Virus record (IMG/VR): IMGVR_UViG_3300042934_000449
Span: 1-39,001 of that record
DNA length: 39,001 nucleotides
Direction: 5' to 3' (one strand)
From: a virus
A program made the translations under genes and the position numbers. The notes beneath the pieces were generated by a model. The model was not told the origin of the DNA. It ran no database searches and saw only the letters and a program-made list of their open reading frames with translations. This document shows positions 1 to 39,001 of this stretch, piece by piece. The first letter of the stretch is position 1; the number at the start of each line of letters is the position of its first letter.

Positions 1-142
1 GGGAAATGTGCATACATGTGAGGCCCTACCAAATGGAGGGCTTTGTGTGTATGTATGTGTAGGGGTGGATGCGGCTATAAAGTAGGGCTTTATTGGTATG
101 GATGAATTGGCATACTCTTTTTGCCCTACCATGTAGATAGGG
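1..142. other. Candidate protelomerase-site (telomere) repeat region
   Basis: No gene is visible here. Two sets of nested inverted repeats each share one centre. Around position 32, CATAC (11-15) pairs with GTATG (49-53) and GCCCT (23-27) pairs with AGGGC (37-41). Around position 105.5, GTAGGGC (82-88) pairs with GCCCTAC (123-129) and GTATG (96-100) pairs with CATAC (111-115). The same two words recur near the other window end (GGTATGCAC at 38971-38979, CCCTA at 38986-38990), beside the protelomerase gene. Telomere resolution sites of N15-type phages are flanked by families of inverted repeats and lie beside the protelomerase gene, so this is probably part of that site. No long perfect central palindrome is visible, so the actual resolution point is not identified. 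Confidence 0.45.
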
Positions 143-436: not shown

Positions 437-1081
437 ATGGCAGCTAGAGTTTTTGCATTCCTTTGCGAGAAAGGAGGGGCCGGGAAGTCAACCGGAGCAA
501 CGAACGTTGCCTCCTACCTGGCCAGGCAGGGCAAGCGAGTGTTGATCGTAGACCACGACCCGCAAGCCTCCGCATCCACATGGTCTAATTTCACGCATGA
601 GAACGACGGACCTGGGGAAATTGCCGTCATCGTGATGAAGAAGCTACAACGCGACTTGCGAAGCGTTTCGCATGGCTTCGACTACGTCATCATTGACGGC
701 CAGCCGACCACCGACGCAGTCACGGTGGACGCAATCAAGGTCAGCGAGCTCGTGATAATTCCAGTCAGACCGAGCGGCTTTGACGTGTGGGCAGGTATCA
801 ACACCGCAGGGCTCGTAAGAGAGCGCCAGGCCCTCACCGACGGCAAGCCAGAGGCGCGCATCCTCGTCTCGCAAGCGATCGTAAACACCGTCATGGCGCG
901 CGACGTGGCCGAATCGCTCGAAAGCTACGAGCTCCCAATAATGCGCGGCAGAACGCATATCCGAGTTGCCTATACCGAAGTGGCCAGCACAGGCACGAGC
1001 GTTATGGACCTGCCGCCAGGCAACGAAGCACGCCTCGAAATAGAGGCAATAGCCAAAGAGATTTTGGAGGTTCTAGGATGA
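437..1081 (+). CDS. parA: ParA-family partition ATPase
   Basis: This 214-aa P-loop ATPase belongs to the ParA/MinD family. It would position and segregate copies of the prophage plasmid in the cytoplasm. The deviant Walker A motif KGGAGKST is at residues 12-19, with an IVDHDPQAS stretch at about 37-45 and YVIIDGQP as Walker B. It has no N-terminal DNA-binding extension, so it resembles the short type Ib ParA proteins, which depend on a small partner and a centromere upstream of the operon. The start follows AGGAG at a good distance. The stop overlaps the next start (ATGA at 1078-1081), so the two genes are translationally coupled. Family assignment is firm; the subtype is inferred from size and context. 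Confidence 0.93.
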   Translation: MAARVFAFLCEKGGAGKSTGATNVASYLARQGKRVLIVDHDPQASASTWSNFTHENDGPGEIAVIVMKKLQRDLRSVSHGFDYVIIDGQPTTDAVTVDAIKVSELVIIPVRPSGFDVWAGINTAGLVRERQALTDGKPEARILVSQAIVNTVMARDVAESLESYELPIMRGRTHIRVAYTEVASTGTSVMDLPPGNEARLEIEAIAKEILEVLG

Positions 1082-2181: not shown

Positions 2182-3191
2182 CATTCCTTGGGATACGTGG
2201 CGTCGATCGAGCATCGGTAACTCTGCTGGCGACTCCCACTATGGACAACCTTGTCGATCGACCATTTGCTCCTCATGAAAGGCGGCCATGACTCGTCGAG
2301 GTTCAATAGACCCTCAGCGCAAAGGTCGGCATTTCCTGGGCAATCCACCCTAAGTTTGACCGACTCGCGCTCTTGCTTGCGCGCTTGGCCCTCGGCCGCC
2401 GCCCGCGCCTCAGCCTCACCCTGATAGCGCTTGCGCATGCGCTTGAACGGCTCGGCACCCACTTCTACGGTGCATTCCTTTGCGGCCTCTCCGTCCCACC
2501 AGGTCGTGCGGCAACCCTTGAACTTGACCCTCGTATCATCGTCGATGCTGGCCATAACAAAGGCCCGGTCGCCTGGGCGATTATCAGTTGTGACCGACAG
2601 GGTCACAGGCGCCAGATTCTGACCCGATAGGCTCTTAACCTTGCCGCGCCTGGCCAGCACGTAGAGCGAGCCGAGAGGCTTGGCCACCGCGTCATGATCT
2701 CGCGCCAGGCGCGTCAGAAAAGCCATGTCCGTTTCGTTCGACTGGTCGACGTGGGCGATTGGGATCGAGGCCAGATCAGATGCCACGCGCGGCGAAAACC
2801 CATATCCACCGGTCAGCTTTTTGAACAGCGCCCCCAAGGTTGTAGGGCCATGGCTGGCGCTGCGCCTGGCCCTAAACCCGGCACCGTCCGTAGGCGTGAA
2901 AGGCGCCGCTGTAGCCACGATCGACAGCCGAGGCGGGAACAGGTTAGGCGTGCGCCGACTGATTATGAACTCGCCTTTATCAACGAGCCCCGTCTCCTTA
3001 TAGCCAATGCGAATACCGACCTTTGCGCCGGCCTCTGGCAGCGAATCAATGCCCTCCGTGTTGACAGTGAGCTTCAATTGATCCGACTCGATGCCCGCCG
3101 CGTCCGTGTATTCCCAGTCAATGAGCCGCTTATTGATAAGTGCGGCGCCAGCGCCATACACCTCAACTTGCGGCGTAAATCCTACAGCCAT
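2181..3191 (-). CDS. D: P2 gpD-like tail hub / late control protein D
   Basis: This 336-aa protein belongs to the phage late control protein D family. In P2-like tails this protein forms the baseplate hub that joins the tube to the spike (equivalent to gp27 of T4). Visible family features are an early VEVYGAGAALINKRLIDWEYTD segment, a middle QSNETDMAFLTRLARDHDA segment and a C-terminal region ending SIDATYPKE. Length matches the family. It is the last gene of the leftward operon, in the P2 order tape measure-U-X-D. In P2 the transcriptional activator is a separate gene, so the 'late control' name need not mean a regulatory role. Confidence 0.92.
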   Translation of the reverse strand: MAVGFTPQVEVYGAGAALINKRLIDWEYTDAAGIESDQLKLTVNTEGIDSLPEAGAKVGIRIGYKETGLVDKGEFIISRRTPNLFPPRLSIVATAAPFTPTDGAGFRARRSASHGPTTLGALFKKLTGGYGFSPRVASDLASIPIAHVDQSNETDMAFLTRLARDHDAVAKPLGSLYVLARRGKVKSLSGQNLAPVTLSVTTDNRPGDRAFVMASIDDDTRVKFKGCRTTWWDGEAAKECTVEVGAEPFKRMRKRYQGEAEARAAAEGQARKQERESVKLRVDCPGNADLCAEGLLNLDESWPPFMRSKWSIDKVVHSGSRQQSYRCSIDATYPKE

Positions 3192-36938: not shown

Positions 36939-37040
36939 CCCACCGTCGGTCGGGAGGATTAGCGCCAGCATAGGCGCTGGCCGGGATGCTTAAACCGGCC
37001 GGCGTCTTGCATCTACTCCCGAAGCGTCAAGGGTATTACA

Positions 37041-37056
37041 CTGTATACTCATACAG
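37041..37056. promoter_or_regulatory. LexA (SOS) box overlapping a -10 element
   Basis: CTGTATACTCATACAG fits CTG-N10-CAG and differs from the ideal CTGTATATATATACAG at three central positions. TATACT within it is a good -10 box, so LexA would block the promoter directly. It lies 38 bases before the 93-aa gene. Confidence 0.82.
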
Positions 37057-37093
37057 GCATTACATTGCCACTAGTAGGGAGGGACGACCTATA

Positions 37094-37375
37094 ATGCAAC
37101 CGCTGGATAGAATCGACGGGGCCTCGCAGCTCCTGCGCAGAGTAGATGCAGTATTGGCCATGATGCTTCAGGTTGGCCCGGATGCCCGCCTTGGACAGGT
37201 CATGGAAACGAACGGGCTGATTAGGGACGAGATCGGCAGGGCGCTCGCGATCCTCGAGGGAGGGGACCAAGAAAGCGCCAGCCTAGAAGGGACTGCCGGG
37301 CTAGCGCCTGCGGCAGTAATGCCAGCCCAAGGAGGGGCGGAGGTGTTGCCTCTTAGGCCTTCACTGCGAGGTTAA
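37094..37375 (+). CDS. SOS-controlled small protein, antirepressor candidate (93 aa)
   Basis: This 93-aa gene lies behind a LexA box, between repA and the protelomerase. It starts MQPLDRIDGASQLLRRVDAVLAMM after AGGGAGG. Residues 1-60 look like a helical domain (LGQVMETNGLIRDEIGRALAILEGG); the rest is Ala/Pro-rich. In phages such as 186, a LexA-controlled antirepressor (Tum) induces the prophage. A similar role is suggested here by the LexA box and by the repressor's altered cut site, but no motif proves it. The 3' end overlaps the protelomerase 3' end by 23 bases, on the other strand. Confidence 0.68.
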   Translation: MQPLDRIDGASQLLRRVDAVLAMMLQVGPDARLGQVMETNGLIRDEIGRALAILEGGDQESASLEGTAGLAPAAVMPAQGGAEVLPLRPSLRG

Positions 37376-38954
37376 AGGCCTCACGCGACGCCGCCATACG
37401 GTCTGCATCCTTCGCGGTCGCGACCTCAACCCCATTGATGCTGGCCACTGCAACCCACTCCCCGTCCTCTGCTCGATGCGACGTAATATGGGGCCTGGCT
37501 TTGGCCACCACAGGCGGGACTTTCGCCACTGTACTGACCGCGTGCGCCGGCACAGCCAGCGCGTCAGCCGCGATCTCTAGATACTCCTTGATGTTGGGCC
37601 GGTAGCTGCCCACGTTTACAGATATTGCGCGTTGATTGATCTTCACGAGAGGATCAGCCTCGATCGCCGATTTAACCCACTCATGGATACGCTCGAGCCC
37701 TGCGCGGCCTTTGATTTTCGGGTGCTCGTCAAGAGAATTTAGACCCTCGAGGCGGCTCGCGAACTTGGGCTGATCGACCGTTTCCTCGTCCGTATACTGG
37801 ACCTTGAACTGCTTGTAACTCTCCTGGGTTTCGAGATCCTCATGGCCGAGCATTTCCCGCCAGAACACCTCGGCGCTTTTTTTCGCCCACCGCTGGTCCT
37901 GGGTGAAGTGGGTCTCGAAAACGATTCGAGCCCATATCGCCCGCGTGTCCTTGAAAACCCGTGATTCATCACGGAAAACACGTTTGACAAGGGTATTCAG
38001 GGTTTTGGCTGTGCGGCGGTTCACCTCTGTTGCATCGAGCCCCTGCAACCCCGCACCCTCTGGCAACCGGCGCATGCGATCAACAGCATCGAGGACGATG
38101 TCAGCGGCCACGAGGGTATAGATTCGGTAGCTCGAGTCATAGTCGACGCCCAGGCGCTGTTTAGCCTGGCCGCTGAACTCGAGCTCGAACTCGCCGGCCT
38201 TCTTAAAACGGCCTTGTGTCAGCACCTCGAACGCGCGTCGCCCGGTGACCATGGCGATTCCAAGGGCCAGATGGGAAAAGGTGCTCGATGCGAGCATTTC
38301 GGCGGCTGTGCGCACGTACCAGTGATAGCCGATGTCGATTGTGTTTACCGCCTTGTTTTCGAGAACAGCGGCTGCGTGCTCGGCCATCTGGTCACGAGTC
38401 AACGTCGGCAGGCTCAAATGGCGCATGATCTCGTGATCGATTTTCATCGCCTTTACGTCTAGGTAGGCAGCGTTCGTGCCGCCTCGCTTGATCTTGTTTT
38501 TCAGGTCTCGATACGCCAGGCGCAGGGGAACAATGTCGGTCGTTTCCGCCATTGTCTGGAAGTCCTCGGCGTACTCCGGGTAGTGCTTGGCCATGCGCCG
38601 ACAGGTTTCCTCAATGGAGTGGTGCCGCCAGTTCTGCGCCTGGACAGCGTTGCGCAGCCTGGTCAGGTAGCGGCGGTAGCTCGAGGCCTTGAGCTTATCC
38701 TCGGGAGCCTTGCGACCGTCTTCGTATAGTTTCGTCTTGATCTTCTGCGCCAGGCGCGCGATGCGCTTGGTCTTTTCACCACGACTAATGCTCTCGTCGC
38801 CATCGATCCGTTCGACCTCCTCGATCATGAACGCGATGATGTCATCGAGCACCACCTTTTGCCGTGTCTGCCCTCCATAGTTGCCGTATCCATGATCTGG
38901 CTGATCGAGCGGTGTGCGAGCGACTGCGGTATCACCTTTGGTCTTGCTGGCCAT
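37353..38954 (-). CDS. tel: Protelomerase (telomere resolvase)
   Basis: This 533-aa enzyme cuts replicated telomeres and seals them as hairpins, so that the prophage stays a linear plasmid. It matches the TelN/TelK family in length and layout. The likely catalytic residues are R240 (VTGRRAFEV), K265 (SGQAKQR), R338 (KDTRAIWAR), H371 (MLGHEDLE) and the nucleophile Y380 (QESYKQF). The C-terminal third holds a DNA-binding part (LVKINQRAISVNVGSYRPNIKEYL). The start has AGGGGAGGG upstream and lies 47 bases from the window end, next to the candidate telomere repeats. Confidence 0.96.
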   Translation of the reverse strand: MASKTKGDTAVARTPLDQPDHGYGNYGGQTRQKVVLDDIIAFMIEEVERIDGDESISRGEKTKRIARLAQKIKTKLYEDGRKAPEDKLKASSYRRYLTRLRNAVQAQNWRHHSIEETCRRMAKHYPEYAEDFQTMAETTDIVPLRLAYRDLKNKIKRGGTNAAYLDVKAMKIDHEIMRHLSLPTLTRDQMAEHAAAVLENKAVNTIDIGYHWYVRTAAEMLASSTFSHLALGIAMVTGRRAFEVLTQGRFKKAGEFELEFSGQAKQRLGVDYDSSYRIYTLVAADIVLDAVDRMRRLPEGAGLQGLDATEVNRRTAKTLNTLVKRVFRDESRVFKDTRAIWARIVFETHFTQDQRWAKKSAEVFWREMLGHEDLETQESYKQFKVQYTDEETVDQPKFASRLEGLNSLDEHPKIKGRAGLERIHEWVKSAIEADPLVKINQRAISVNVGSYRPNIKEYLEIAADALAVPAHAVSTVAKVPPVVAKARPHITSHRAEDGEWVAVASINGVEVATAKDADRMAASREAFNLAVKA

Positions 38955-38970: not shown

Positions 38971-39001
38971 GGTATGCACTTTAAACCCTAGCTCCAATTA
39001 T
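38971..39001. other. Right-end half of candidate telomere inverted repeat
   Basis: GTATGCAC (38972-38979) is the inverse of GTGCATAC at positions 8-15, and CCC (38986-38988) faces GGG at 1-3. If the window ends are joined, an imperfect palindrome of about 45 bp forms, with a TAGCTCCAATTAT centre. It also overlaps the promoter zone of the protelomerase gene. Confidence 0.5.

Follow-up and report, generated by a model that had tools for sequence, protein, structure and literature searches.

The window is the entire 39,001-bp IMG/VR record IMGVR_UViG_3300042934_000449, which is classed as linear. It includes genes for a protelomerase, ParA, a large replication protein and P2-like tail proteins. 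The ParA-family partition ATPase (437–1081, plus strand; Pfam AAA_31/CbiA) is 93% identical in the related contigs L010 and L011 and 47% identical to that of Halomonas phage phiHAP-1. The protelomerase (37353–38954, minus strand; 533 amino acids) is 49% identical to that of phiHAP-1 and 45% identical to that of VP882. The tail gene DNA matches both of these phages, and the order of the genes, taken from the ORF map, is that of phiHAP-1 and pNY5520, the latter a Pseudomonas aeruginosa relative in its linear-plasmid form (pNY5520-NR). The likeness in protelomerase, ParA and the P2-like tail genes, together with the shared gene order, makes the window a phiHAP-1/VP882-like (Hapunavirus-like) protelomerase phage. 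When the ends of the record are joined, the order becomes parA, telomere, protelomerase, which phiHAP-1, VP882 and the relatives also have; a telRL site has this location, beside the protelomerase gene. The two ends of the window are very probably the two telomere regions of a nearly complete linear-plasmid prophage, which by our estimate would be about 39.13 kb long when complete.

The protelomerase comprises N-terminal, catalytic, stirrup and small C-terminal domains. It matches the ResT-TelK catalytic domain (PF16684, E-value 6.4e-32) and, at residues 400–468, the C-terminal stirrup DNA-binding domain of TelK (PF20818, 33.1 bits against a cut-off of 27); a match to PF22853 falls just under the cut-off. 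The structure of TelK (2v6e) is matched by profile with an E-value of 4.7e-93 and by fold with a Z-score of 21.2 over 424 residues (rmsd 3.9). The small C-terminal domain (residues ~481–533; 37353–37553, minus strand) is predicted to consist of three strands and a helix. Its fold has a weak likeness to dsRNA-binding domains (Z-score 5.8), and the best Foldseek match (E-value 0.26) is not significant. The ends of TelN and TelK look similar. Homology to these C-termini was considered and is not claimed, because a profile of residues 468–533 did not score them above shuffled controls.

Between the replication and protelomerase genes there is a 129-amino acid ORF (36986–37375, plus strand), which has no Pfam match. 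The TF-smORF lysis modules of linear plasmid phages are found at this place (PMC10432266). Upstream of parA there is an inverted repeat, CGCAAAAACGTA-N10-TACGTTTTTGCG (367–400), which is conserved in L010, L011 and L012 and was not found in more distant relatives. This is a probable par operator or centromere, outside the telomere array. The word AGAAAGGAC is present at 240–248 and 302–310. It also occurs in the ParA arms of many relatives, including pNY5520, at about 301 nt and often also at about 229 nt from the telomere centre; the phiHAP-1 version is AGAAAGGAT.

Repeat units at the ends of the window

An earlier note on this DNA described the first 142 bp as nested inverted repeats of two words, GTATG and GCCCTAC, about exactly shared centres at 32 and 105.5. 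All of the words are found where they were described. CATAC (11–15) pairs with GTATG (49–53) about centre 32, as does GCCCTAC (23–29) with GGAGGGC (35–41), although this inner pair contains one mismatch. About centre 105.5, GTAGGGC (82–88) pairs with GCCCTAC (123–129), and GTATG (96–100) with CATAC (111–115). Both words are parts of one 20-bp unit, which is seen as CATAC-N7-GCCCT at 11–27(+), 37–53(−), 84–100(−) and 111–127(+). The order +,−,−,+ makes one head-to-head pair and one tail-to-tail pair; as the two words stand a constant distance apart in every unit, any two inverted copies automatically have common centres, with the words in swapped order.

The shorter pattern CATAC-N7-GCCC has no match outside these four places in the 39,001 bp scanned. 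Allowing up to one mismatch, CATAC-N7-GCCCT has six matches, of which only the four are exact and the others are at 1085 and 25334. Shuffles of the 142 bp contained 0.001 exact units on average and at most one (20,000 shuffles). Other sampled 142-bp stretches of the window held at most two copies of a 5-N7-5 word pair, compared with four here.

Protelomerase searches provided 46 viral contigs and seven genome contigs (Pseudomonas, Stutzerimonas, Halomonas and one Spirulina assembly) for comparison. A 20-bp matrix was learned from the half-sites of the relatives only, leaving out the two closest that show the ParA-side arm, and was then refined on the flanks of the relatives (consensus TnCATACACCnnTAGCCCTA). 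Over the whole window, the four best matches to the half-site-only matrix are at 9–28, 38971–38990, 36–55 and 109–128.

The ParA-side telomere half-site, lacking its inner end, occupies 1–32 (plus strand), about 11–42 nt from the hairpin centre, as aligned by eye to the half-sites of L005, phiHAP-1 and Pseudomonas. Unit 1 (9–28, plus strand; TGCATACATGTGAGGCCCTA) is the outer part of this half-site and the top match of the half-site-only matrix, scoring 21.0. The other units are satellites. Unit 2 (36–55, minus strand) includes CATAC-N7-GCCC, is the best match in the window with the final matrix (23.7) and corresponds to a unit at 48 nt in relatives. Unit 3 (83–102, minus strand) has a refined matrix score of only 6.0; it contains the exact CATAC-N7-GCCCT (84–100) and has the orientation and order seen in relatives. 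Unit 4 (109–128, plus strand), found by the matrices and by CATAC-N7-GCCC(T), corresponds to the unit at 100 nt in relatives (111–121 nt in arms of five units). A possible degenerate extra unit (54–73, minus strand; CGCATCCACCCCTACACATA) is weak because it scores 13.0 while the best match in ten shuffled 39-kb windows scored 17.3; some relatives have a fifth unit nearby. Measured from the telomere centre derived below, the units lie at 19+, 46−, (64−), 93− and 119+. The window therefore carries flanking copies of the outer half-site motif, of the type known from N15 telRL (L1–L3/R1–R3).

The earlier note also placed the same words at the other end of the window, and this is the case. The unit GGTATGCACTTTAAACCCTA (38971–38990, plus strand) lies beside the protelomerase start and ranks in the top three of the record when scored with the unit matrix derived from relatives. 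It scores 12.4 with the half-site-only matrix and 16.4 with the refined matrix, and is equivalent to the unit at 134− in L005.

Location of the resolution site

In the intact regions of relatives a palindrome centred on TATAC|GTATA is nearly always present. L005 (82% protelomerase identity) is the closest relative that shows the protelomerase-side arm through to the centre, and it begins exactly at the palindrome centre with GTATAGAATGCGGAAATGTGCATACACATGAGGCCC. The window begins with GGGAAATGTGCATACATGTGAGGCCC; aligned to L005, base 1 therefore lies at approximately the 11th base counted outward from the centre. About 10 nt at the inner end of the half-site, GTATAGAATG in L005, are absent from the record, and the resolution dyad TATAC|GTATA is placed by this alignment about 10 nt before base 1, outside it. 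The window shows one half-site from about position 11 outward, and the dyad and the protelomerase-side arm, being absent from the record, are read from relatives, where alone the dyad and the other half are seen. The start of parA is at 442 in the pNY5520-NR record and at about 447 from the derived centre in the window.

At its other end the record stops within the −10 element of the protelomerase promoter (38997–39001, minus strand; ATAAT, with the first T off the record by comparison with L005). The last unit, 12–31 nt from this end, corresponds to 134–153 in L005, so about 122 nt to the hairpin centre are absent. A MAFFT alignment of the left arms and the L005 right arm was uninformative across the array, since all three of the closest ParA-side contigs start past it, at points closer to parA.

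The ends of related contigs point to the same centre. Of the relatives' 30 contigs longer than 30 kb, 14 have an end that lies no more than 450 bp upstream of the protelomerase match (0.36 expected), and most of the ends inspected lie within 35 nt of the centre. L005, L022 and L035 start at the centre or one base off, and ten further inspected contigs run 2–35 nt across it. The Pseudomonas aeruginosa record pNY5520-NR was deposited as a 77,056-bp circle and is an inverted dimer, in which both joints are telomere centres; the two ends of the record agree at 3,000 of 3,000 positions compared and the two sides of the middle joint at 160 of 160. Assembly through two hairpins would give such a dimer as its expected product, and a replication intermediate is a possible alternative.

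The Pseudomonas records NZ_CP096940.1 (L066, L072 and L073), NZ_CP115281, NZ_CP102178 and NZ_AP022474 are 75–79 kb long, and each contains two matches to the protelomerase. In all stretches compared, NZ_CP096940 is an inverted dimer and is therefore probably one hairpin plasmid of ~38.5 kb assembled through its ends. Another contig (L017, NZ_JAIHOM010000047.1), deposited as Spirulina subsalsa, comes from a phiHAP-1-like telomere phage and starts 6 nt before the telomere centre; it probably comes from a companion bacterium in the Spirulina culture. Among the 'linear fragments' and 'circular plasmids' that have been deposited, some are probably complete hairpin plasmids.

These results move the target proposed in the earlier note. 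It took the repeats to be a protelomerase binding array containing the resolution site; they are a protelomerase-associated array beside that site, and centres 32 and 105.5 were rejected as the cleavage dyad because about 50 relatives place the dyad before base 1. What was read as a new central palindrome consists of a half-site and, after it, satellites that copy its outer part. The difference from the TelN and TelK sites, which the note pointed out, reflects membership of the phiHAP-1/VP882 group. The note proposed to map resolved ends; the contig ends and the P. aeruginosa dimer joints adjoin the array and do not fall within it. Comparison with the upstream regions of related protelomerase genes, which the note also suggested, finds the array conserved and the dyad off the end of the record.

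Conservation of the array and its relation to known telomeres

The earlier note made its reading depend on conservation of the repeats in relatives, and they are conserved. The refined matrix finds 197 satellite matches in 9,336 bp of the relatives' flanks, compared with 8.0 ± 1.9 in shuffles, an excess that is in part built in, since these flanks also served to train the matrix. With the half-site-only matrix, a first pass at a looser cut-off gave 163 flank matches. Satellites have fixed positions and orientations on both arms. The ParA arms have units at about 20+, 48−, 72− and 100+ nt from the centre, or in some cases five (20, 48, 71, 95 and 111), and the protelomerase arms have units at about 20+, 65−, 94− and 135−, a few having more. 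Position, orientation and spacing are kept across protelomerases that are ~45–60% identical to that of the window. The ten best unit sites in the whole genome of pNY5520 are all at the telomere, as are all fourteen unit sites listed for phiHAP-1. The same arrays are present in pNY5520-NR and L013/L014; the main text of an account of this phage group does not mention inverted repeats, palindromes or telRL.

The window shares with phiHAP-1 and VP882 the order parA, telomere, protelomerase, related unit words, flanking arrays on both arms and, as read from relatives, the dyad TATAC|GTATA. It differs in its half-site, where the GGG-to-GTGCATA spacing is shorter by one base, in the spacer bases of its units and perhaps in having a ParA arm of the five-unit type; VP882 has GTACAC words and a somewhat different unit order. 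The telRL sites of N15 (with L1–L3/R1–R3) and phiKO2 likewise consist of a palindrome and degenerate flanking copies of the outer motif, but have the core TATACGC|GCGTATA and other words. The N15 palindrome is 56 bp long with at least two degenerate copies on each side (PMC12624138), compared with three ordered copies here. The telRL of Yersinia phage PY54 also has a palindrome with flanking repeats of the outer word, but its sequence is different; in its relative vB_YenS_P840 the flanking repeat is not needed for resolution (PMC10612081). Because N15 has comparable copies, the window array is of a known kind and, judged by sequence, is a new and better-ordered member of it. As far as the literature searched shows, what is new is that about 50 relatives have an ordered array with conserved positions, and that this array co-varies with the half-site and stands in register with the protelomerase promoter.

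The likely binder and the proposed role of the satellites

The unit changes in flavour from phage to phage and tracks the half-site. It is GTATACACC...GCCCTA in Pseudomonas relatives, ...GCGCA in L034, L039 and L060, and GTACAC in VP882-like phages. N15, phiKO2, PY54 and VP58.5 have unrelated words, and their flanks likewise contain copies of the outer half-site. Over 12 groups including these four phages, flanks match their own half-site above those of others (permutation p ≤ 5e-5), the matching being weak or not top-ranked for VP882, L018, L044, L056 and Valp1. The Hapunavirus unit matrix has no convincing matches in N15, phiKO2, PY54, Valp1 and VP58.5, because their words differ. Such co-variation points to one protein reading both sequences. 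As the protein that reads the resolution site is the protelomerase, this enzyme is the likeliest binder of the units.

The units might instead be partition sites for a small ParB-like protein encoded after parA, which would segregate the linear plasmid. A short ParA is encoded 300–430 nt downstream of the array and is followed by a small protein with a weak ribbon-helix-helix match, an arrangement like that of type Ib par loci. However, units are also present on the protelomerase side and within the resolution half-site, their sequence follows the half-site across phages, and the inverted repeat at 367–400 is a better candidate par site. N15 and phiKO2 use a different partition system, of the SopAB type. 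Despite this, both have satellites (PMC12624138), and we regard a centromere role as improbable.

Operators of a transcription factor, such as a phage repressor, acting on the divergent parA and protelomerase promoters are a very improbable explanation: two units do bracket the protelomerase promoter and the unit is of operator-like size, but the strong sites of phiHAP-1 and pNY5520 are all telomeric with none at other phage promoters, unit 1 belongs to the resolution half-site, and the three ParA-arm satellites are well away from parA. That the satellites are non-functional relics, half-site duplications left by faulty telomere resolution or replication, is also very improbable: palindromic telomeres are prone to rearrangement and the copies are degenerate, but position, orientation and spacing persist at ~45–60% protelomerase identity, and 197 matches were found where shuffling gives 8.

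The promoter of the protelomerase gene stands in a constant register with the array. In L005 it is TTGATG-N18-TATAAT, 98–127 nt from the centre. The −35 element of the best sigma-70-like promoter lies within a unit in 35 of 38 protelomerase-side arms, usually six bases in, and a unit follows within 25 nt of the −10 element in 32 of the 38. The −35 overlap alone is modestly informative, since units fill about half of this arm; the constant register is the better argument. As two units bracket the promoter, the array is predicted to mediate self-repression of the protelomerase. A literature search recognised no report of protelomerase self-repression.

We therefore return to the protelomerase, and consider it very probable that bases 1–129 are the ParA-side arm of a linear hairpin phage-plasmid whose satellites are most likely docking sites for this enzyme. 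After replication, the phage protelomerase would bind the palindrome off the end of the record, cut it and rejoin each side as a hairpin. Units 2–4, satellite copies (−,−,+) of the outer half-site following unit 1, would offer extra docking for the same protein, probably through its C-terminal DNA-binding domain or domains. Several protelomerase molecules could thus be gathered at the telomere, which may help resolution and protect the hairpin. Occupation of the array should also lower protelomerase synthesis, since the protelomerase arm has two satellites that overlap the promoter and follow it. What the comparison shows is the layout of the arm, its conservation, the place of the centre and the agreement between array and half-site, and we infer binding, a capping role and self-repression. 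Truncated TelN needed induction for end protection and full TelN did not (PMC12624138), a result that fits a role for C-terminal DNA-binding domains when the protein is scarce.

For protelomerase phages in general, we tentatively suggest that a satellite array co-evolving with the site and keeping its order may be a telomere cap built of protelomerase and, on the protelomerase side, also the enzyme's own operator, with occupancy setting supply. In this scheme the satellites would be recognised by the C-terminal domain or domains, in the way that arm sites are recognised by the arm-binding domain of lambda integrase. Protelomerases and their target sites are used for making closed linear DNA, and how hairpin ends are protected by protelomerases is an open question (PMC12624138). 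The large natural set described here, with fixed satellites that change together with the core, would allow a direct test of recruitment, end protection and enzyme regulation.
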